A stretch of 26,290 nucleotides of DNA from a virus, in IMG/VR virus record IMGVR_UViG_3300022074_000325, positions 1 to 26,290 of that record; one strand, 5' to 3'. How positions within the stretch are numbered: the stretch's first letter is position 1; every line of letters starts with the position of its first letter. Positions 8,590 to 26,252 of this stretch are shown here, piece after piece. Under the pieces are notes generated by a model. The model was not told where the DNA came from, made no database searches, and was given only the letters and a program-made list of their open reading frames with translations. A program made the translations under genes and the position numbers.

Positions 8590-9803
8590 GATTGATAAGA
8601 AGTTTGATGGATAAGGAGTTCTACGATGACCATCGTGGGGCTAAATGTCCTGACAGATTATTTAGTAAAGATACTCGTAAAATAAAAAAGTCTATTGACA
8701 CAGCTATGAGTAGATATGAGAGAACAGTTACACCTGATGAGATTGAGGCATTGTTTATGTCTAGCAATCCATCAATGACAACAGCACAGAAACAAGCCTA
8801 CAGTTCCTTGTTTAGGCAGATAAAGAATGAACAACCTCTTGGGGGTGATGTAGCACAGGAAGTGTTGTCAAAGCTGTTCCAACAGATTGTAGGAGAAGAT
8901 ATTGCAAACATAGGGTTTGACTATGTGAATGGCTCACACTCAAGCCTTGAACCTATCCGTAATATACTAGAGATGTACGGAGATGATTTTACACCTAATT
9001 TAAATGTGGAGTGGGATGATATGGATATAGAAACATTACTAGCTAAAAATGATTTAGAAGCACGTTGGTCTTTCAATGTACCTGCACTAACAAGACAGGT
9101 AGAAGGAATTAACTCAGGACATTTAATTGAGATAGGAGCTAGACCTAATACAGGCAAGACTTCCTTTCATGCAAGTTTGTTGGCAGGTCCTAATGGTTTG
9201 GCACAGCAGGGGGCAAGTTGTATTATACTATGTAACGAAGAGGGAAGCCATAGAGTTGGTGCTAGATATCTGACGGCAGCAACAGGCATGACTATGAAAG
9301 AAGTTAGAGATAATCCAATTAAAGCAAGGGATTTGTATGAGCCTGTAAAACAAAACATAAAGATTAAAGATGCTACAGGTAGAGATATGTCATGGGTTGA
9401 AAGTGTTTGTAAATCGTACAGACCTGATATTGTAATACTTGATATGGGTGACAAGTTTGCACGTACAGGGGGCTTTGCTAGAACAGACGAAGCACTCAAG
9501 GCTAATGCAGTACATGCTCGTATGATTGCAAAGGAACACAAGTGTGCTATGTTTTATATGTCACAGCTATCTGCAGATGCAGAGGGTAAGGTATTATTAA
9601 ATCAAAGTATGATGGAAGGCAGTAGAACAGGCAAGGCTGCAGAAGCTGACTTGATGATTTTAATTGCTAAAAACCCACCAAAACAAGATGAAACAGAAGA
9701 GGATTTACAAAGGCATTTAAATGTGGTAAAGAATAAACTTACAGGATGGCACGGTGTCGTTCACTGTAATTTGAATTATCAAGTAGGAAGATATGAAGTA
9801 TGA
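8580..9803 (+). CDS. Replicative DNA helicase, DnaB/gp4 type (407 aa)
   Basis: RecA-fold hexameric helicase that unwinds DNA at the fork. Walker A is GARPNTGKTS (residues 186-195), LCNEEGS (217-223) fits the catalytic Glu region, Walker B is PDIVILDMGD (282-291), and FYMSQLSADAEGK fits the sensor/DNA-binding motif. The N-terminal 150 residues are helical and probably contact the primase. In T7 primase and helicase form one chain; here they are two, overlapping by 10 bases and so probably made in step. It ends in a 4-base overlap with the DNA polymerase gene. Length is normal for a stand-alone DnaB-like domain with an N-terminal collar. Confidence 0.92.
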   Translation: MELGLIRSLMDKEFYDDHRGAKCPDRLFSKDTRKIKKSIDTAMSRYERTVTPDEIEALFMSSNPSMTTAQKQAYSSLFRQIKNEQPLGGDVAQEVLSKLFQQIVGEDIANIGFDYVNGSHSSLEPIRNILEMYGDDFTPNLNVEWDDMDIETLLAKNDLEARWSFNVPALTRQVEGINSGHLIEIGARPNTGKTSFHASLLAGPNGLAQQGASCIILCNEEGSHRVGARYLTAATGMTMKEVRDNPIKARDLYEPVKQNIKIKDATGRDMSWVESVCKSYRPDIVILDMGDKFARTGGFARTDEALKANAVHARMIAKEHKCAMFYMSQLSADAEGKVLLNQSMMEGSRTGKAAEADLMILIAKNPPKQDETEEDLQRHLNVVKNKLTGWHGVVHCNLNYQVGRYEV

Positions 9804-11821
9804 AATTAATTTTAGATGTAGAAAATACAGTTACAAAGAAAGATGGTAAGATGCACCTTGACCCATTTGAACCATCAAACAAATTGGTCATGGTAGGTTA
9901 TCTAAAAGAAGATGGCGATTATAAATTATATAGTATGGATACAGGCGAAACAAATGATATACAGGAAACACTAGACAAAACAACATGTCTTATAGGACAT
10001 AACATAGCCTATGATTTGATGTGGCTTTGGGAGTGTGGGTTTAAATATGATAAAGATGTATTTGATACTATGCTGGGCGAGTATATATTACAGAGAGGTA
10101 TTAAAGAACCTTTGCATCTCAAGGATTGTGCATTGAGATATAATTTAGATACTAAAAAAGAGGATACTCTAAAGGATTACTTTGCAAAAGGTTATGCTAC
10201 AGATGAAATACCTAGAGATGAGTTATCAGAATATTTAAAGGCAGACCTATTTGCTACAAGAGATTTATATCAATCTATAACAAGTAGGTTAAACAAAGAT
10301 AAAAATAAAGTTCTTACAAGTACAGTAAACTTAACAAATCAAGTTTGTGTTATACTTGCAAAGATATATCGAAATGGTTTTTCTGTTAACTTAGATAAAC
10401 TAGATGAAGTAAAAAAACAGTTTGAGCAAGAAAGGTTAGATGTAGAAACTAGGTTAAATAAACAGGTGCGATATCTAATGGGAGACACACCTATTAATTT
10501 AAATAGCCCTGAGCAAATGTCTTGGGTAATATATAGTAGAAAACCTAATGATAAATCTATGTGGGCAAATAATTTTATACCTTATATGCCTGATGCACAA
10601 TATAAAAATATAGTAAAAGAATATTCTTCAATTATACAAAAAACAAAAGCTGTAAAGTGCAACGTATGTAAGGGCGAAGGTTATGTAAGAAAGGTAAAAA
10701 AGGATGGCAGTTTATATTCTAGGACAAGTAGATGTGTTAATTGCAGTACTCATGGTTACTTATTTAATGATACAGGAGTTGTAGCAGGGTTAAAATTTAC
10801 AGCACCAAATTCTAAATGGGTCAGTGCAAATGGTTTTACAATTAACAAAACATATCTAGACACATTACGTAGTGTTGCTAGAAAGAATGATATGCAGGAT
10901 GCTGTACAGTTTTTAACCGACCTACAAAGACTGTCAGCACTAGATACATATCTATCGTCATTTGTTGATGGTATAAATACCTATACTAAAGCAGATGGTA
11001 AGTTGCATGTTCGACTACTACAACATAGAACATCAACAGGTAGGTTTAGTGGAGCAGACCCAAACATGCAGAACATGCCTAGAGGTGGTACGTTTCCTGT
11101 AAAAAGGGTATTTGTTTCACGATGGGAAGGTGGCAAGATACTTGAAGCAGATTTTGCACAATTAGAGTTTAGGACTGCGGCATATTTGTCACAGGATAAA
11201 ACAGCAATGAAGGAGATTAATGATGGTTTTGACGTACATAGTTACACTGCGAAGGTTATTTCGGATAGTGGTCAAAAGACTACTAGGCAGGAAGCGAAAG
11301 CCCACACGTTTGCCCCACTCTACGGAGCTACGGGGTTTGGGAGGACAACTGCTGAAGCAACGTATTATAAACAGTTCACAGAAAAGTACAAAGGAATCGC
11401 ACTATGGCATTCCAGATTGGCTGAGGAGGCTTTAGAAACAGGTATGATTACTACACCTTCAGGTAGGCAATTTTCTTTTCCTGATGTGCAGAGAAAAAGA
11501 AAGGGTGGTGTAAGTTATTTTACACAGATTAAAAACTACCCTGTGCAGTCTTTTGCAACTGCCGATGTAGTACCTTTAATTTTAGTACATATTTATAAGG
11601 CACTTGACAAGTATATGTCATGTGTGGTAAATACTGTACATGATTCTATAGTTATTGATATTCACCCTAAAGAGGTGGATATTGTGTTAGGTATAATTCG
11701 TGAAACTAATGACAAAATGAGTTCTTTAATAAATAAAACATTTAATATTGATTTTAATTTACCATTATTATTAGAGGCAAAAATTGGAGATAATTGGCTT
11801 GACACGAAAGATGTAATGTGA
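9800..11821 (+). CDS. Family A DNA polymerase with DnaJ-like zinc insert
   Basis: Replicative polymerase with proofreading. Exonuclease motifs are LDVENT (D6, E8), GHNIAYD (66-72) and YLKAD (145-149). A zinc insert of about 50 residues (C287, C290, C312, C315; CNVCKGEGY then CVNC) resembles part of the DnaJ central domain. It lies in the thumb region, after NLNSPEQM. Polymerase motifs follow: motif A LEADFAQLEFR (D451), motif B RQEAKAHTFAPLYG (R496, K500, F504, Y508) and motif C VHDSI (H614, D615). Motif C has Ser where Glu is usual (HDE). The position equivalent to E. coli F762 is Phe. This architecture is, from memory, the hallmark of HMO-2011-type marine phages. The start overlaps the helicase stop (ATGA). 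Confidence 0.95.
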   Translation: MKLILDVENTVTKKDGKMHLDPFEPSNKLVMVGYLKEDGDYKLYSMDTGETNDIQETLDKTTCLIGHNIAYDLMWLWECGFKYDKDVFDTMLGEYILQRGIKEPLHLKDCALRYNLDTKKEDTLKDYFAKGYATDEIPRDELSEYLKADLFATRDLYQSITSRLNKDKNKVLTSTVNLTNQVCVILAKIYRNGFSVNLDKLDEVKKQFEQERLDVETRLNKQVRYLMGDTPINLNSPEQMSWVIYSRKPNDKSMWANNFIPYMPDAQYKNIVKEYSSIIQKTKAVKCNVCKGEGYVRKVKKDGSLYSRTSRCVNCSTHGYLFNDTGVVAGLKFTAPNSKWVSANGFTINKTYLDTLRSVARKNDMQDAVQFLTDLQRLSALDTYLSSFVDGINTYTKADGKLHVRLLQHRTSTGRFSGADPNMQNMPRGGTFPVKRVFVSRWEGGKILEADFAQLEFRTAAYLSQDKTAMKEINDGFDVHSYTAKVISDSGQKTTRQEAKAHTFAPLYGATGFGRTTAEATYYKQFTEKYKGIALWHSRLAEEALETGMITTPSGRQFSFPDVQRKRKGGVSYFTQIKNYPVQSFATADVVPLILVHIYKALDKYMSCVVNTVHDSIVIDIHPKEVDIVLGIIRETNDKMSSLINKTFNIDFNLPLLLEAKIGDNWLDTKDVM

Positions 11822-18349: not shown

Positions 18350-21300
18350 TCAGTTTTTCTTAGCTGGAAAAAAGTCTCTATCGCCAAACATATTAATGTA
18401 TAATCGTATACCTTCAATATAATCTCCGTTTGTATCAACATCAACAAGTGTTTCATAGAGACTATTTCCATTTTCTTTTCTGTATCTTTCCTCTACTATT
18501 CTTCTTTTATTAGTAGGTAAACCTATAAAAAGAGCTTTTAGTTTTCTCTGTCTTTCAGATGATGTATCCTTTATACTAGGTTCTAAAACTTTTGTTCTTG
18601 CTAAAGTTCTATAGTCTGTTATTTTTTTATTTAAAAAGTATTTTTTTTGTCTATCCGTTTTTAATGATTGATAATCTTTACTCATTATGTATGGAAGAAT
18701 GTAGGTGTCCATGTTAAGACCCATTTCACCTTTAGCTAGATTAGTAAAAGCAGGGTCTCCCTTTATTTTTCTAGGTGCTATTTGCCTATAATCAAATCTA
18801 AGTCTTTCAAGTTCATTTTCAACAAGAGTCTTTTTTTCTTGTTCATTAAAACCTACAATCATTTTAAGAAATGGATTTACATTATATAAGGGTTTATCTC
18901 TTGATGGTCTATAAACAGGAACATCTCCTTGTTCAGGGTCATACTTATCAGGAAAAGACCTCATTGCTCTATTTAACATATATTCCATAAAATCTACAGA
19001 AGTAGTATCCTGTACTACTCTATATTCAAGTCCACCTACTGTTCCTGCTATATCTTTTACCATACCAAAAGGAACTAATGCACTATTAAAAAAATCACCT
19101 GCAAATCTAGCTGATACTTCTTGCCAAGTCATATCACTAGGACCACCTGCTTCTCTTGAATTTACAAGACCATCAACTAAACTATCTACAACATATAAAC
19201 CTGAACCACCTTTTGCTGAACCACCTAAAAATGCATTTATTGCATCTCTTGCTTTTCCGTCAACACCAACAGCTACTTTATCATTATTATGTATTTGTGG
19301 TAGCTTTACACCAAATAGTTCACCCTGTTCTTTAGGTCCTGTGTGTCTATATAACCAATCTGCAAACCAAGCAGCACCCATAAAAGGTCCTAAAGCTGCC
19401 GTTAAATCATATGTTGCACCACCAACTTTAAATTCATAAGGACCTGTATTTTCATCACCAAAATGATTTCTTATTCCATAGAAAGCAGCTAACACACCAA
19501 GACCACTCATTTGTTTTCCAAATGCTTCGCTGTCAAGTTTAAGTCTAAATTCGTTTCCTAAACCTACGTTGACACCACGTATACCTTTTTCTCCACCTCT
19601 TTTATTAAGTATACCACCCATATTAATTAAACCTAATATTGGTGCATGTTCATATTGAAATATTAATTGGTTTACAAGATATCTAGGAAAAGGAACAAGA
19701 GCAGATGCAGGTATAAATCCTGTAGCTGCCGTTATAAAACCATCGGCTAACTTGTTAAAAGCTCCTGCCTTACCTTGAAACTTACCCTCTTGATATGTAA
19801 ATTCTAATGCTTTTGTCATTGCATCTCTAATTGCTTCTTTACCACCATCCATGTCAAATATTACATTAAATATTCCTACAGAGTCTTCTGCTCCTTCAGA
19901 TAAATAATAGTCTTCAAACATTTTTCTAAGACCACCTTGATTAGTATTTGTTCTAATCCACTTATCAATTTCTCTAGAAAATATAGCTCTTTTAAAATAA
20001 TTATCACTCATAGAGTTTAAAGTATTTGCTTTTCTAGCTAGAGCAACTATACCACCCTCTACTGCAAGGTTTTCACCTACATCACCCATTTCTCTAAATA
20101 ATGTTTTTGCGAGGTCTGATTGACCAAATTTTTCATCTCTAAATAAAAGTGAAAGAGCCTCTGTTTCCCAAGAGTTTGTTCCAAACCACATGTCTTTCAT
20201 GTAAGCAGACTGACCACCTGTTCTCATTTTTTCCATACCTGCAACAACTGACCTTTTAGCCTCTTTAATTAAAGCCTTATTTACTGTAGTAGCACCACCT
20301 ACAAATTGACCACCTGCTTTTACTATGTCTGCTAATCCTTCACCTACATTGTCAAGTGCATATACATAGTTTCTCATATATCCATTTGTTGTATTACGTG
20401 CTGTTGTAGCAGTTTGAATTGTCATTAGTCCAATACGAGCTTTGTTTATAGCACTAGGACCCCAATTTGTATACACTCTTCTTAATTTAGAACCTAGACC
20501 TTTCTCTGATTCTTCCAATGCTTTTTGTGCAGGTGTTTTTACATCTGCTAAGTTAACAAGTTTTTGGTCTATCTCTGCTAACTCTTTTAACAATTTTGTT
20601 TTTTCTGCTTTTTTTAATGCACCTAATCTACCTAATTTTCTACCTGCTTCGCTATATTCTGCTACGATTAAAGATGTTAATTGCGTTACAGTTAGTCCGT
20701 GGTCATCTAATATTTTTAGTATACCAACATCTGTTACATCACCTTCTGTTAATCCTCTTGCTAATCTTGATGTTATACGTTCTTTTTGTACAACTTTTTT
20801 TCCTGTAGAATCTACTGTTTCTTTTACAATAGGTTTTACATTTTTTAATATTAATGTTGCAGCAGAAGCAATATTTTCGTGAAACTTATCCTCAATAGTA
20901 GGAACAAATTTAGCAGATTTAAAGTTTACATCTGATGCTAAACCACCACCGGGTGTTTTTAATTTCTTACCCTCTGCTAATTTTTCGGGAACTGTCTCTA
21001 TTAAAGGTAATAATTTATCTTTTACTAATAAATATGTATCTTTTGTTGCTGCATCTGTAGCAACTTTAGATGTTATATTTTTATGAGCTTTTTCTATTTT
21101 ATGTGTTTCTTTAGCTATAGCACTTAATCGAATTTGTTCTGCTATATTAGATGTTATAGTTTTTTGTGTTCCTGTTATTGCACCAAAAGTACCTGATGTT
21201 ACAGCACCAAATGTAGTGGCTAATGCTATATCAGCTAAACTTGCATCATCTGCTATACCTAACTGTTCTCTTGTCTCACCTTGTTGTCGCACAGTATATC

Positions 21301-21853
21301 CTGCAACTGCTCCATCTATGAGAGCAGAAGCTCCTGCAGTTTTCCAACCACCTTTTTTAAAACCATCTACAGATGCCTCTAATCCTGCACGTATTTTACC
21401 TTTAGCTTTTCTTTTTAATACTTGTCTAATGCCTAATTTAATGCCTTGTTGTGCCGCCAAAGAACCTGCTTTTGCTGCACCAAAACTAAATATACCTGCA
21501 TAAGTAGAGGGAGCTTTAAGAACACCTTCTACATAATCACCTGCTGCTGTCCAACCAAAGTCACTATCCATATTATCATAAGCATTCATTAAACTACCAA
21601 AACGCTCTTGACTTTCATCATCTGCTGTTTGAGCATAGAATAAATCTCTAGTAGCTGTTACTTCGTTAACATTTTGTTTACGAAAATGTTCCATAAACCC
21701 ATCATAAATCTGTTCATTAACATCTTCATCACTGTATGAAAATTCATAGCCTCCCCTATCTTCTAAAAAAAGAGCAGCATCTTCTAGAAACTGCTCATCA
21801 CTTATAAGATTTTCTTTGTTTAAATCCTGTTTATCTAAATATTTATATGTCAT
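18350..21853 (-). CDS. Large internal virion/ejection protein (1167 aa)
   Basis: Largest gene in the window and the last of the late operon. The N-terminal 100 residues are acidic (DEQFLEDAALFLEDRGGYEF). Several Ala/Gly-rich hydrophobic stretches (STYAGIFSFGAAKAGSLAAQ, residues about 116-135; ADIALATTFGAVTSGTFGAI, about 207-226) and a central stretch (ITAATGFIPASALVPFPRYL) could insert into membranes. Long charged helices and a basic C-terminus follow. No lysozyme or protease motif is evident. Size and position at the end of a podovirus structural operon resemble T7 gp16, which is ejected to form the DNA channel. That comparison is by position, not sequence. It overlaps the preceding 512-residue gene by 4 bases. 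Confidence 0.7.
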   Translation of the reverse strand: MTYKYLDKQDLNKENLISDEQFLEDAALFLEDRGGYEFSYSDEDVNEQIYDGFMEHFRKQNVNEVTATRDLFYAQTADDESQERFGSLMNAYDNMDSDFGWTAAGDYVEGVLKAPSTYAGIFSFGAAKAGSLAAQQGIKLGIRQVLKRKAKGKIRAGLEASVDGFKKGGWKTAGASALIDGAVAGYTVRQQGETREQLGIADDASLADIALATTFGAVTSGTFGAITGTQKTITSNIAEQIRLSAIAKETHKIEKAHKNITSKVATDAATKDTYLLVKDKLLPLIETVPEKLAEGKKLKTPGGGLASDVNFKSAKFVPTIEDKFHENIASAATLILKNVKPIVKETVDSTGKKVVQKERITSRLARGLTEGDVTDVGILKILDDHGLTVTQLTSLIVAEYSEAGRKLGRLGALKKAEKTKLLKELAEIDQKLVNLADVKTPAQKALEESEKGLGSKLRRVYTNWGPSAINKARIGLMTIQTATTARNTTNGYMRNYVYALDNVGEGLADIVKAGGQFVGGATTVNKALIKEAKRSVVAGMEKMRTGGQSAYMKDMWFGTNSWETEALSLLFRDEKFGQSDLAKTLFREMGDVGENLAVEGGIVALARKANTLNSMSDNYFKRAIFSREIDKWIRTNTNQGGLRKMFEDYYLSEGAEDSVGIFNVIFDMDGGKEAIRDAMTKALEFTYQEGKFQGKAGAFNKLADGFITAATGFIPASALVPFPRYLVNQLIFQYEHAPILGLINMGGILNKRGGEKGIRGVNVGLGNEFRLKLDSEAFGKQMSGLGVLAAFYGIRNHFGDENTGPYEFKVGGATYDLTAALGPFMGAAWFADWLYRHTGPKEQGELFGVKLPQIHNNDKVAVGVDGKARDAINAFLGGSAKGGSGLYVVDSLVDGLVNSREAGGPSDMTWQEVSARFAGDFFNSALVPFGMVKDIAGTVGGLEYRVVQDTTSVDFMEYMLNRAMRSFPDKYDPEQGDVPVYRPSRDKPLYNVNPFLKMIVGFNEQEKKTLVENELERLRFDYRQIAPRKIKGDPAFTNLAKGEMGLNMDTYILPYIMSKDYQSLKTDRQKKYFLNKKITDYRTLARTKVLEPSIKDTSSERQRKLKALFIGLPTNKRRIVEERYRKENGNSLYETLVDVDTNGDYIEGIRLYINMFGDRDFFPAKKN

Positions 21854-23388
21854 TTCGTAATTAAACCGTAAGCCTTATCATTCCAATCTTGATTTGTTAA
21901 ATTTTTAAATTTTTGTTTTAGCGTAGCTTCATCAGTCTGTTGTAAATTATTTTTTAAAAATACTTTAATTTGTCTTGCTTGTGTAGCACTTCCACTGTTT
22001 AAAAATTTAGTTACAAGTGTCGAAATATCAACACTATTTTGTGTGTTATTTTGTACAGAGGTATTGCCTGTATTAGTTACAGTGTTTTTAGGAGTAACAT
22101 TATTATTAGGCTTTTGTTGAAACTCGTTTTTGTCATAATCTATATTTCCATTTACCACAAAATATGCAGAACCGTCTCCATTTCTATCTAGTTTCTTATC
22201 ATTTTTAATCATTTCTTTTGTTATAATCTGAACATCAAGAAGATTATTTGCTGCATATGACAAAAATTGCATAGCATCTAAGGCATCGCCATAAGGTATT
22301 TGTTGTCTACTAAAATCATCCATTACATTAGTTTTTTGATTTTCATCTATGTAACCAACCATAGGTGCATTTAGGCTTCCTCTATTTTCAGCTAACTTAG
22401 ACATCTTTAAAAAACCTGTTAACTTATTTGCATAATTAGATGAAAGTTTTGCGTTGTTTAATTTAGTATCATCTGCATTCCACTCACCATTTAATAAACT
22501 TTGGTCTACACCTAAACCACTCATAAGGTAATGTTTTAATAGATTATTTACAGACCTTTCATTTGCACTGCCACTTTTTATTTCTTTATCTGCTGTATTT
22601 CTTATAATTATTTCTAGCTCTAGTTCTCTTTCTGATAAGTCTCTATATTCATCACTTTTTGGGTCAAGATTTTCTAGTCTACCTTTAATTAATCCTAAAT
22701 CTTTTTCATAAGATTGACCTAGTAACAACTGAAATCTATCTACATTAATGTTAGGTGCTGCAGGTGCAGGTAATTCTCCATAGTCTGTTTGTAAACTATC
22801 TTCACTATATCCTGATAACGCTAATTCTGTTTGAACATATTTTTTTGCTTGTTCAGTTGCATTGTTTTTGCCCCTCATAAATATGTTTAATATGTTCATG
22901 CCTGTTCCTTCTAAGGCTGTTCCCATATCACTATCTTTCATACCAAAGTCCATAGGTATTGTTATGCTATTTGCAAGTTGTTGTTGTGTTGGAACTTTTC
23001 TTTTTCCATTAGGTGCTATTTCAGGTAATGTATATAACTGTTCTATTTTCATACCACTTGTAACTAACTTTGAGGCAATTTCAGGAACAACAGTCTTTGC
23101 ATAACCATATCCATTTTTAGCAATTATACTATGTAATACTTCTATACCTCTAGTGCTTCCATTTTGATTTAACTGTGCTTCTAAAAGTTTAATTTCATCC
23201 TGATTTTCTCTAAATTCTTTATTGAATCTTTTAGTTTCTTCTTCAGCTTTATTTACCCTACTTCTGGCTATTCTTTGTATCCTATCGTCATAGTCATCCA
23301 TAGCACCTTGAATACCCTTAGATGCACTTGTAGCAATACCACCTGCAAGACCCTCTAAAAAAGGTTTATTAAATATACTTCTAATCAT
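21850..23388 (-). CDS. Virion protein, probable internal core protein (512 aa)
   Basis: A late protein with an N-terminal Gly/Ala segment (FLEGLAGGIATSASKGIQGA), then a charged coiled coil (about 35-75, RIQRIARSRVNKAEEETKRF). After that come a helical body and an Asn/Thr-rich linker (PNNNVTPKNTVTNTGNTSVQ) leading to a small C-terminal domain (STLVTKFLNSGSATQARQI...LTNQDW). A GGAG box lies just upstream (AGGAGAGCTATATG on the minus strand). Its place between a conserved virion protein and the 1167-residue protein suggests an internal core or ejection protein like T7 gp15. I do not recognise the sequence itself. The start overlaps the preceding gene by 4 bases. Confidence 0.65.
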   Translation of the reverse strand: MIRSIFNKPFLEGLAGGIATSASKGIQGAMDDYDDRIQRIARSRVNKAEEETKRFNKEFRENQDEIKLLEAQLNQNGSTRGIEVLHSIIAKNGYGYAKTVVPEIASKLVTSGMKIEQLYTLPEIAPNGKRKVPTQQQLANSITIPMDFGMKDSDMGTALEGTGMNILNIFMRGKNNATEQAKKYVQTELALSGYSEDSLQTDYGELPAPAAPNINVDRFQLLLGQSYEKDLGLIKGRLENLDPKSDEYRDLSERELELEIIIRNTADKEIKSGSANERSVNNLLKHYLMSGLGVDQSLLNGEWNADDTKLNNAKLSSNYANKLTGFLKMSKLAENRGSLNAPMVGYIDENQKTNVMDDFSRQQIPYGDALDAMQFLSYAANNLLDVQIITKEMIKNDKKLDRNGDGSAYFVVNGNIDYDKNEFQQKPNNNVTPKNTVTNTGNTSVQNNTQNSVDISTLVTKFLNSGSATQARQIKVFLKNNLQQTDEATLKQKFKNLTNQDWNDKAYGLITK

Positions 23389-23894
23389 ATAGCTCTCCTA
23401 GACATTAATCCTTTTGGCTCTTCTTCTTCAACAGGTTCTTCTACATCAGGTTCTTTAATAGTGTCCATAGAATCTACATTAACATCTTTTTCTTTTAGCA
23501 TTTTTTCTACACTTCTTTTTGCTAAAGTATCACGGTCTTTACTTGGACTATCTTCTAATCCTGTTGTATATTTAATACCTGCAGTATCACCTATTAGTTG
23601 CATATTTTCTACTAGTACAGGTAAACTTAACAATCCTGTATCTACTGTATGCTTACCTTCCATAACACCTGCTAGTTGTATTGTATTAGCAATTGTTGTT
23701 AAAGGTATACCCATATCTATGATATCAACAAGCTGTTCTGAAAATTCATCTGACATCATTTTAGATGTATAATGTTCTACAACCTCATCAACGGTTGTAA
23801 ATTGAGGTGGATTCTGCCAAGGTCTTGCTCTAAGTTCGTGGGTTAAACCCATTCCTGCAATAGGAGCATCAAAATTAGGTGTCTTTATTTCCAT
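23385..23894 (-). CDS. Conserved marine-phage virion protein (169 aa)
   Basis: Opens with DAPIAGMGLTHELRARPWQN (residues 10-29), then PPQFTTVDEVVEHY, a helical section (IIDMGIPLTTIANTIQLAGV), EGKHTVDTGLLSLPVLVE and an acidic tail (EPDVEEPVEEEEPKGL). I recall proteins with this RPWQ-PPQ opening among structural genes of marine phages, though their place in the virion is not clear to me. The long acidic tail could act as a chaperone-like or assembly arm. It overlaps the preceding 75-residue gene by 20 bases and the next by 4 bases, so all are translated from one late transcript. Confidence 0.7.
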   Translation of the reverse strand: MEIKTPNFDAPIAGMGLTHELRARPWQNPPQFTTVDEVVEHYTSKMMSDEFSEQLVDIIDMGIPLTTIANTIQLAGVMEGKHTVDTGLLSLPVLVENMQLIGDTAGIKYTTGLEDSPSKDRDTLAKRSVEKMLKEKDVNVDSMDTIKEPDVEEPVEEEEPKGLMSRRAI

Positions 23895-24102
23895 TATTTT
23901 TTAATTCCATTCTTATATTTCTTATGCTATTAAAGTATTTAGCGACTCTATAAGCAGGTTCATTTGAAAATGTATTTTTATTTTTGTTAATTGAATTTGT
24001 CATAGGTGCTAGTAAACCATTACCTTTTTTAACAGGTTTAGGTTCATTTAATTTTACATTTTGCATATTTCTGTATGCTAGTTTTGTGTAATTTGTAATC
24101 AT
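23875..24102 (-). CDS. Hypothetical basic protein (75 aa)
   Basis: Not recognised. It is strongly basic and Asn/Lys-rich, with a first part YTKLAYRNMQNVKLNEPKPV, a flexible Asn-rich middle (NSINKNKNTFSNE) and a helical end (AYRVAKYFNSIRNIRMELK). It sits between two virion genes with overlaps of 4 bases (upstream) and 20 bases (downstream), which supports a real gene in the structural operon. A small virion or assembly protein is likely by position. There is no transmembrane segment or Cys residue. Confidence 0.7.
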   Translation of the reverse strand: MITNYTKLAYRNMQNVKLNEPKPVKKGNGLLAPMTNSINKNKNTFSNEPAYRVAKYFNSIRNIRMELKNNGNKDT

Positions 24103-26018
24103 GTTGGTATATTACCTGTTCCAAATCTTAGATAGGCACTTCCTAATGTTCCTATTAGATTTCCAATTGCAGTACCTGCTGCTGAAGAAGATGATGCAGA
24201 AGATATAGCAGCTTGTGTCTCAGCATCTAGCTGTGCTTCGGCAAGTTTAGTTATTCTATCTAATTCATTTTCAGCAGAAGTCCATGCCCACTCCATACTA
24301 TCAGCGTAATATTGCCATAAGTTATCGTATGAAGTTTTAGATATATCTAACAATGCATTTGCATTTAATTCATTTGCTCTATTAACAGCTACAGTATCTG
24401 CTGTCGCTATCTGTCTTCTCCACTGTGCATTATTCTGTGCTATTACTAATTGATTTTGTGCATTAAATTGGTCACGTTGATTGTTTAATTCAGCATTAAA
24501 TCTTTCTACTGTATTAACCTGACCTGCATTAAACTGACCTTGAGCATTAGCTTGGGTAGCATTATACTGTGCTACTTGTGTAGCTAAGTTAGCAAAAAAT
24601 TGGTCTGTCTGATTTTGTGATGTTGCGTTAAACTGTTTTGATGCATTTTCTGCAGCTTGGTCTGTAAACAAAGATTGTATTCGTTGTTGTGCTTTAAAAA
24701 CTTCTGTCTGTTGTTGGTTAGTTAAATTAGCCATATCCATCTGTAAAAAGTTTTGAGCATTTTGTACAGAAGCCTGTTGCCTATTATTTAAATTAGATAA
24801 ATCCATATTCGCTAAAGCAGATGCTTCTGCTATTACAAGAGCTTGTCTATTAGATAAGTTATTTAAATTCATTGTATTAGCAAGTTTAGAATTTTCTAGT
24901 GCTACTTGTTGTTCTGCATTAAAGTTTACATTTGCTATATCAGATATTTTTGATGCGTTCTGTACTCTAGCTTGAAAGGCTTGGTCAAATTCCTGACCTA
25001 TAAATGTAGCTCGTTGCTGTGCTGCCAACATTGACCGTTGTTGTCTGTTTGACAGGTTCTGCATTTCAAATGTTTTAACTGTATTTGCATCTGCTTGTGC
25101 AATAGGTAAAGCTGACTCAATTGCTGCCTGTACAAGTGCCTGTCCTGCTATACTAGAAGCACCTATACCTCTTTGTTGCATAACAGATTGTACACCTCTG
25201 ATAGCACCTGCTGCCCAAGATGGTGGATTAGTCGCATCAAAGTTAGCAGTTAACTGTGATAGCTGACCCTGCACTGTGGCTTGGTCTGTGGGTGTTGCTG
25301 TCGCAGCCTGTACCTGTTCAGTATACTTTGATGCTTTTTCTGCGTTTGCTACACCATCTATTAGCTCACCTGTTTGTATCTGCCTCTGTACAGGATTAGT
25401 CATTAAGATAGCATTACCTTGTGCTGAAGATAAATTCTTTACACTTGATGCTGTTTGTTGTGCTGCAAGAACGGATGCTCTTGGGTCATTGGGGTCTGTT
25501 TGAGATGCCTGTAATGTATCAAGTGATGTATTAACTTGCTCTGCAGTTTGTTGTGCATCCATTACATTTGCTTGTGTAGTAGTAGGTTGTTGTGCCATTG
25601 TTGTTGTAGCCATTGCTGTTGGCACGGCTACTGTACCTGTCATCTGTCCTGCACGAGGGTCTACTAATTGTTCTTGTGATACTTGTGTTCCTACAGGCAC
25701 TGTTGTAGTTCCTGTTGGTAAAGCAGGAGCAAGAGCCTTCTGTGCTGACACATCACCTATGCTTGAACCTGCAGGTATATTCTGTTGTGGTATATACTGT
25801 TGTGTTAGAGGTCTTGGTTGTGGTTGTCCACCTGTTTGCATTCTAACAACACCACCTCTAGCCATTTCTTTTGCAGCTTCTTCATATACAACCATCTCCC
25901 TTTTCTTATCAGGGTTTTGCTCTAGGTATGCATCAAAGTCTTGTATAGGTCCTTGATAACCCATACTACTTGCAATCTTTTGCATTGCTTGAGGTTTAAA
26001 CCCCTTAAACATAGCCAT
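24099..26018 (-). CDS. Gln/Asn/Ala-rich hendecad-repeat virion protein (639 aa)
   Basis: Domain order: a short N-terminal domain (GFKPQAMQKIASSMGYQGPI), the motif MARGGVVRMQTGG (52-64) that I recall in other marine-phage virion proteins, then a Pro/Thr/Gln-rich linker (about 65-170). A helical section follows, with an 11/22-residue repeat region (about 321-540). There N(L/F)xN recurs at 321, 365, 387, 409 and 431, and QFNA-like units recur every 11 residues from 462 to 528. The C-terminal part has a Trp-rich helix (LWQYYADSMEWAW) and a Gly/Ser/Ala tail. An 11-residue period suggests a right-handed coiled coil in an elongated fibre or inner tube. Function is unproven. It lies in the late operon, 3 bases after the holin-like gene. 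Confidence 0.75.
   Translation of the reverse strand: MAMFKGFKPQAMQKIASSMGYQGPIQDFDAYLEQNPDKKREMVVYEEAAKEMARGGVVRMQTGGQPQPRPLTQQYIPQQNIPAGSSIGDVSAQKALAPALPTGTTTVPVGTQVSQEQLVDPRAGQMTGTVAVPTAMATTTMAQQPTTTQANVMDAQQTAEQVNTSLDTLQASQTDPNDPRASVLAAQQTASSVKNLSSAQGNAILMTNPVQRQIQTGELIDGVANAEKASKYTEQVQAATATPTDQATVQGQLSQLTANFDATNPPSWAAGAIRGVQSVMQQRGIGASSIAGQALVQAAIESALPIAQADANTVKTFEMQNLSNRQQRSMLAAQQRATFIGQEFDQAFQARVQNASKISDIANVNFNAEQQVALENSKLANTMNLNNLSNRQALVIAEASALANMDLSNLNNRQQASVQNAQNFLQMDMANLTNQQQTEVFKAQQRIQSLFTDQAAENASKQFNATSQNQTDQFFANLATQVAQYNATQANAQGQFNAGQVNTVERFNAELNNQRDQFNAQNQLVIAQNNAQWRRQIATADTVAVNRANELNANALLDISKTSYDNLWQYYADSMEWAWTSAENELDRITKLAEAQLDAETQAAISSASSSSAAGTAIGNLIGTLGSAYLRFGTGNIPT
24405..25058 (-). 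repeat. Coding repeats: 22- and 11-residue periods
   Basis: Codes for residues 321-538 of the 639-residue protein. A 22-residue unit (N at 321, 365, 387, 409 and 431) passes into an 11-residue unit with aromatic residues at 463, 474, 485, 496, 507 and 518. DNA copies have diverged and only the protein period is clear. Confidence 0.7.
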
Positions 26019-26021
26019 TAT

Positions 26022-26252
26022 TTATTTTCCTATTAATATCTTATCTAATTTATCTTCTAGTCTTTGCATAGCATCCATAATGTTATGCATATCTTCTTTA
26101 ACATCATCACGTTTGGCATACTCCTCTCGTGTTTTATTGAGGAGTATATCCAAGCGTTTTACTTCATTAAACATACCACGAAACACCCATATAGCAGGTG
26201 CTATGACGAGCGTTAGTAGTCCATTCCAAAATAGTATTGGGTTTACTTCCAT
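26022..26252 (-). CDS. One-helix membrane protein with coiled coil (76 aa)
   Basis: A single N-terminal membrane helix (about residues 6-25, ILFWNGLLTLVIAPAIWVFR) is followed by a charged coiled coil (NEVKRLDILLNKTREEY and MHNIMDAMQRLEDKLDKILI). This layout resembles holin accessory proteins of the XhlA type and some phage holins, so a lysis role is plausible, but a virion membrane-contact role is equally possible. It starts in a TAATG overlap with the gene upstream. The next gene starts 3 bases after its end, using an AGGAAAA box within this gene. Confidence 0.7.
   Translation of the reverse strand: MEVNPILFWNGLLTLVIAPAIWVFRGMFNEVKRLDILLNKTREEYAKRDDVKEDMHNIMDAMQRLEDKLDKILIGK

Follow-up and report, generated by a model that had tools for sequence, protein, structure and literature searches.

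The C-terminal half of a 639-residue protein encoded by a marine podovirus is best read as a long right-handed hendecad coiled coil, which would be a multi-chain supercoil and whose length changes among relatives in whole steps of 11 residues with a single exception. This protein, here called the rod protein, is probably the first ejection (pilot) protein of an HMO-2011-type podovirus, and its amide-rich coiled coil would help to form a trans-envelope conduit. The gene lies in a virus record of 26,290 bases (the window, by which we mean the whole stretch of DNA analysed), and its features are listed in Table 1 with those of its neighbours.

Table 1. The rod gene, the segments of its product and the genes that follow it (window coordinates).
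Feature	Residues	Coordinates	Strand	Basis
Whole rod gene, 639 aa		24099..26018	-	ORF list; homologue of HMO-2011 gp25 (YP_008320287.1, hypothetical protein)
Three-helix N-terminal domain (MGYxG...F..YL..NP...M..Y...A..MA.GGVV..QxGG)	1-65	25824..26018	-	AlphaFold2 (AF2) helices 9-18, 25-34, 36-53, pLDDT about 80
Low-complexity linker	66-266	25221..25823	-	Length and composition hypervariable among relatives
Head motif WAAG...QRGIGASSIAGQA...ALPIAQADA (N anchor)	267-310	25089..25220	-	Conserved; invariant residues
22-residue units beginning N(L/F)x(N)	321-452	24663..25058	-	Lag-22 z=6.1; seam 1-5-9-12-16-20
Seven 11-residue units QFNA/QFFA/QYNA/QFNA/RFNA/QFNA/QNNA	462-538	24405..24635	-	Sequence; hydrophobicity peak 98.0 degrees
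C-terminal helical segment NLW..Y.D.MEWAW	539-610	24189..24404	-	Conserved; AF2 helix 561-632
Uncharged Gly/Ala-rich hydrophobic zipper SSSSAAGTAIGNLIGTLGSAY	611-631	24126..24188	-	Sequence
Small ORF, 75 aa, between rod gene and 169-aa gene		23875..24102	-	In relatives this slot holds small ORFs or is a gap
169-aa partner		23385..23894	-	Conserved companion, size close to T7 gp14-like proteins
512-aa protein, gp15-like slot, fast evolving		21850..23388	-	Synteny and size
1167-aa protein, internal-virion-protein-D / gp16-like		18350..21853	-	tblastn to LUZ100 gp47

The proteins of the window match those of HMO-2011-type marine podoviruses, and its opposite operon carries a family-A DNA polymerase and a B12-type ribonucleotide reductase, as in HMO-2011. 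The polymerase (9800-11821, plus strand) contains a zinc motif of the DnaJ type, CXXCXGXG (PF00684, E=3e-4), which the annotation of HMO-2011 also gives. The rod protein is 67% identical to HMO-2011 gp25 over 99% of the query (tblastn) and belongs to the gp25 family, whose members of lower identity are found in Roseobacter CRP phages, Pelagibacter HTVC103P/104P/115P/033P, Pseudoalteromonas Slicky01, Aeromonas MQM1 and 1233, Vibrio CHOED, Rhizobium RHph and Sinorhizobium phiM6 phages. Marine viral contigs hold hundreds more homologues, and this phage type is very common in the ocean. Where annotation was examined, all homologues are hypothetical proteins apart from one named huntingtin; the rod protein matches nothing in PHROGs, Pfam or NCBIfam, and we found no description of the periodicity or length steps of gp25 homologues in the papers on these phages that we examined. 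One pair of contigs of 55,371 and 62,825 bases (L178-L181) recurs in two unrelated MAGs, Flavobacteriales TMED123 and Neomarinimicrobiota MED589; these contigs are probably misbinned phage, and the MAG therefore gives no indication of the host.

The periodic region occupies positions 24405-25058 of the window, the complement of residues 321-538. The original prediction described seven consecutive 11-residue units in this region, and the starts of all seven are exact (QFNA at residue 462, QFFA at 473, QYNA at 484, QFNA at 495, RFNA at 506, QFNA at 517 and QNNA at 528). It also described N(L/F)xN units spaced by multiples of 22 residues, which are present at residues 321, 387, 409 and 431, but at residue 365 the sequence is NFNA, which keeps the phase and lacks the second Asn. 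Residue 343, which is in the 22-residue phase, lacks the motif altogether, and a further NLNN, at residue 384, is out of phase. Autocorrelation, assessed against 2000 shuffles, gave signals at lag 22 in residues 311-450 (z=6.1), at lags 33 (z=5.9) and 11 (z=5.6) in residues 431-545, and at lag 22 across residues 311-560 (z=7.2). The same test found no comparable periodic signal in residues 1-310. Tandem Repeats Finder detected neither 33- nor 66-bp tandem arrays in the rod DNA. In the absence of 33-bp arrays we rejected DNA-level tandem duplication and take the rhythm to be an old repeat kept at the protein level only.

The rod spans about residues 312-545. Its 22-residue and 11-residue parts are shifted relative to each other by 9 (or -2) residues, which indicates one rod with a single register slip near residues 450-460. 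Because of this offset, Fourier analysis of the whole rod masks the 98-degree signal; the two segments were analysed separately, with hydrophobicity averaged over the 53 closest sequences. On the Fauchere-Pliska scale residues 456-545 show a peak at 98.0 degrees per residue, equal to 3/11 of a turn (p about 0.007), and this peak is not significant on the Kyte-Doolittle scale. Hydrophobic residues fall at positions 1, 5 and 9 of each unit in the 11-residue part, giving the 4-4-3 spacing of hendecads. A seam at positions 1, 5, 9, 12, 16 and 20 is visible in the 22-residue part, although a 131-degree harmonic dominates there. The harmonics at 131 and 163 degrees prompted us to consider a beta-solenoid with an 11-residue coil, which we provisionally rejected on the basis of the predicted helical model.

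That model, computed with AlphaFold2 for a single chain from an 83-sequence alignment, has long helices at residues 290-362, 369-407, 412-429, 434-498, 501-557 and 561-632, with no strands in the rod. The predicted rod is helical and shows no sign of a globular fold (pLDDT about 40-80), with values of about 40-55 in the 22-residue part and up to 75-80 elsewhere that are too weak for detail. Foldseek found no match to the model in the PDB at E<0.001, and the viral library returned phage models only, homologues first. A profile search of solved structures with the rod protein gave no match; a single-sequence search of solved structures returned nischarin (E=0.097), a weak match that we judged to be due to chance.

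All 91 matches to a profile of the N-terminal domain in the fetched loci sit on rod proteins. In the linker, AF2 pLDDT is mostly below 50 over residues 125-224. Some relatives (L068, L073, L055, L079 and L090) carry an extra low-complexity extension of about 300-520 residues ahead of the conserved part, and no fibre or other known domains were found in the N-terminal extensions of relatives. The head motif is written WAAG...RGIGASSIAGQA...ALPIA in the family alignment (residues 267-310), and P266, A269, G284 and A307 are invariant in 83 sequences. W533, the C anchor in the last 11-mer, and W568, within residues 539-610, are also invariant. Residues 611-639 contain no acidic residue.

We measured rod length as the distance from A307 to W533, with both anchors mapped by profiles of the head and C-terminal region. 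A first set of homologues gave lengths of 149, 160, 171, 182, 215, 226 and 314 residues, all in one class modulo 11, and a single 315. All 12 measurable loci of a previously unused collection fall in the same class, with new values of 248, 424 and 534, as does the spring phage ctYwJ313 (336, measured by hand). Overall, 10 of the 11 distinct lengths, which run from 149 to 534 residues, and 141 of the 142 distinct sequences are congruent modulo 11, whereas the linker of the same proteins takes 47 lengths spread over all eleven classes. Within clades of the first set length hardly varies: it is 226 in 82 of 82 members of the window clade, down to roughly 57% identity, 160 in all 41 members of the CRP-738 clade and 314 in 19 of 20 members of the HTVC clade. 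Since a single event could account for each new length, the weight of the evidence is that of about ten length changes and not of 142 sequences. Odd multiples of 11 occur as well as even ones; thus the evolutionary unit is 11 residues rather than 22, and helical hairpins are unlikely because the removal of one 11-mer would invert them.

An 11-residue period is kept in every family of relatives tested, namely phages of SAR116, Roseobacter, Pelagibacter, Vibrio, Aeromonas and Rhizobiales. Together with the 98-degree peak, the 4-4-3 seam and the helical model, the whole-11 length changes uphold the original proposal that the repeats are hendecads. Neither of the two outcomes named in advance as refuting it, a globular prediction or loss of the period in relatives, was observed. 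Length changes would stay in the 11-residue register because an off-register shift would break helix-helix packing along the rod. The rods span 13.5 to 48.5 hendecads, or 22 to 80 nm if each were one straight helix, and the 226-residue rod of the window would measure about 34 nm as one straight helix.

Lengths that are near-fixed within clades and stepped between them could also be produced by a tape-measure-like ruler, in which rod length sets tail or fibre length. However, HMO-2011-type phages are short-tailed (PMC9038755), and in MQM1, the one relative measured, the tail is 9.2 nm (PMC10410586) against about 27 nm for a 182-residue rod as one helix. We regard a ruler as very improbable.

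Apolipoproteins, perilipins and synuclein contain 11- and 22-residue repeats that form amphipathic 11/3 helices lying on membranes. The 11- and 22-residue units of the rod, with their weak hydrophobic face, and the hydrophobic Gly/Ala zipper at the C terminus would similarly suit a helix resting on or coating a membrane and serving to open the outer membrane during ejection. Few charges flank this face, however (the 234 residues of the rod hold 16 Lys and Arg and 17 Asp and Glu), and a membrane-lying helix should tolerate lengths that are not multiples of 11, yet register is kept over 149-534 residues. Such a role is unlikely.

The setting of the gene favours ejection. The rod gene is followed by one or more small ORFs, a gene for about 170 residues, one for about 400-810 and then the largest (about 820 residues or more), an order kept in Puniceispirillum, Roseobacter, Pelagibacter, Vibrio, Aeromonas, Rhizobium and Sinorhizobium phages. 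The 169-residue partner was found in 25 phage records, compared with 27 for the rod gene, in the same phage groups, and in 159 loci it follows the rod gene in the same orientation, with two exceptions that have more than 1.5 kb of room. In podophage ejection clusters, gp14-like proteins have 181-240 residues, gp15-like proteins 431-982 and gp16-like proteins 609-1337, according to a review that does not mention hendecads or coiled coils (PMC8954989). Judged by gene order and size, the 169-, 512- and 1167-residue proteins fit these three slots roughly, and the rod protein would be an extra first member. The largest of them is similar to the N-terminal portion of LUZ100 gp47, which is annotated as 'putative internal virion D' (tblastn, E=4e-9), and its own AF2 model has no structural match in Foldseek. 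Sequence similarity between the 169-residue partner and T7 gp14-like proteins was not detected, and the 512-residue protein had no match among phage records at E<0.01. That the three classical slots are already filled by size counts against the rod protein as an ejection protein. We counted toward ejection that many other HMO-2011 genes are annotated as tail fibres. Synteny makes it likely that the rod protein is present in the virion; we found no virion mass spectrometry or proteomics for these phages in the papers examined. Upstream of the rod gene, positions 26022-26252 (minus strand) encode a 76-residue protein that has a hydrophobic helix at its N terminus and a tail resembling a coiled coil; it matches phrog_462 'lipoprotein' (4e-6) and is possibly a spanin or lysis gene product.

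A position at the head of the cassette might also be expected of an internal core or scaffold-like protein that organizes the portal-proximal core or the packaged DNA and stays in the head, given that a gp13-like gene precedes the gp14-like gene in the T7-like phage LUZ100. The LUZ100 gp13-like protein is only 167 residues long by its gene coordinates, however, and no sequence link was seen between it and the rod protein. We consider a core protein to be improbable.

The main rival is an external trimeric fibre or tail-tip stalk, with the rod as its shaft, folded with the help of an S74 chaperone where one is present. Peptidase_S74 is an intramolecular chaperone best known from trimeric tail fibres. 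In the CRP-738 clade this domain (PF13884, E=1.7e-10 in CRP-738 gp24) forms the C terminus, following the segment that corresponds to the zipper, and long tail fibre proteins are common among S74 matches. In HMO-2011 the genes directly upstream include some annotated as tail fibres, and a single narrow hydrophobic seam suits an oligomer of low order. However, S74 is absent from the rod protein of the window, which this domain therefore does not place among S74 fibres, and from most relatives, in which the protein ends in the hydrophobic zipper and lacks a receptor-binding domain. Conservation is found in the C-terminal region, whereas the tips of fibres are usually variable, and the rod gene is linked to the genes for the 169-residue and IVP-D-like proteins.

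Moreover, S74 occurs on first-slot ejection proteins of other podophages. A search with the CRP-738 C terminus showed that it closes the first ejection-cassette protein of the P22-like phages 199E37-1, AH02, PAE2, H6/1 and 1.275.O, and also the 'DNA ejection protein' of Salmonella phage 7-11, whose annotation notes similarity to phiEco32 (loci L190-L197). In the kuravirus SU10, gp20-24 are five ejection proteins, identified as such because virions contain them and particles that have released the genome do not (PMC9509320). Among the relatives of the rod protein that were scanned, only the S74-bearing one, from the CRP-738 clade, matches phrog_4287 'DNA ejection protein' over S74 and the preceding 40 residues. 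The presence of S74 on ejection proteins means that S74 alone does not imply an external fibre. The rod may be a trimeric stalk, whether within the head or external to it, and neither the single seam nor S74 decides the matter; an external fibre is on balance doubtful.

Other S74-ending marine phage proteins (L160-L173; for example L161:2152-3531, L165:2662-4047 and L170:6927-8312) were matched only near S74, and several of them have an autocorrelation peak at 18 residues, which is five helical turns. The S74-bearing gp17 of Pseudoalteromonas phage H6/1 (L191:3143-4219) has a weaker 11/22/33 periodicity (z 2.6-4.7).

Among the three roles originally proposed for the rod, an inner DNA channel or ejection conduit therefore fits best, on the strength of the cassette and an analogy to phiX174 H, a fibre is the main competitor and a tape measure fits poorly. 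We infer ejection, oligomerization and contact with DNA for the rod protein. In the mechanism that we favour, the N-terminal domain and disordered linker would probably tether the protein in the head, and at infection it would exit via the portal, together with its 169-, 512- and 1167-residue partners, to help build a conduit across the cell envelope. The rod, with its thin hydrophobic seam, would be followed by the helical tail and the hydrophobic Gly/Ala zipper, and its Asn/Gln/Ala-rich helices may line or brace the route of the DNA in the manner of the phiX174 H tube.

This proposal can be set beside several known systems. Like the T7 gp14/gp15/gp16-type ejection proteins, the rod protein is encoded in a late-operon cassette that ends in a very large protein; T7 gp14 has about 200 residues, whereas the cassette here has an extra, long first protein. 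The first-slot S74 proteins (P22-like Vibrio 199E37-1, AH02, PAE2 and H6/1, Salmonella 7-11 and phrog_4287) are likewise encoded early in their cassettes and share with the rod protein a Gly/Ala-rich hydrophobic stretch near the C terminus, an RGxGxS(S/G)-type motif, noticed by eye, that hhalign also aligned and, in the CRP-738 clade only, S74 itself. They are shorter, at about 270-410 residues, and with S74 removed the hhalign profile comparison to them is not significant (E=0.7 and 0.25), so we do not claim homology. Outside S74, no sequence or profile match of the rod protein to a known ejection protein was significant.

The closest functional analogue of the proposed role is phiX174 H, which passes DNA through the envelope and was the only directly relevant work that we found in the literature on hendecads in podophage ejection proteins. 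H forms a decameric helical tube with hendecads, in which 18 of 23 lumen residues are Asn, Gln or Arg (PMC7354561). Like the predicted rod, it is a Gln/Asn-rich, hendecad-containing helical coiled coil with a kinked transition between periodicities. The surface of the rod outside the seam is rich in Asn, Gln and Ala, and Asn, Gln and Arg make up 38% of the rod compared with 30% of the H coiled coil, although a lumen in the rod is hypothetical. No sequence homology between the two was detected. H belongs to a microvirus with single-stranded DNA, and its decamer has a 121-residue tube of three hendecads, a transition and then heptads, whereas the rods described here, known from sequence and a single-chain model, have 149-534 residues with elevens throughout.

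The 11-residue rule offers a sequence-based means of finding such proteins in dark phage genomes, and rods of 13.5 to 48.5 hendecads that keep their register in related phages constitute a clean natural experiment, in which the amide-rich hendecad coiled coil can be tested as a general solution for passing DNA that is used by unrelated single-stranded and double-stranded DNA phages. A bolder and more tentative proposal is that one very long hendecad assembly, formed by the first ejection protein, guides the DNA of HMO-2011-related podophages during delivery, the DNA passing either inside it or alongside it. Its length would be specific to each clade and evolve only by whole elevens, and amide rings would line the DNA path. 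Such an assembly would be a counterpart, in a double-stranded DNA phage, of the phiX174 H tube.
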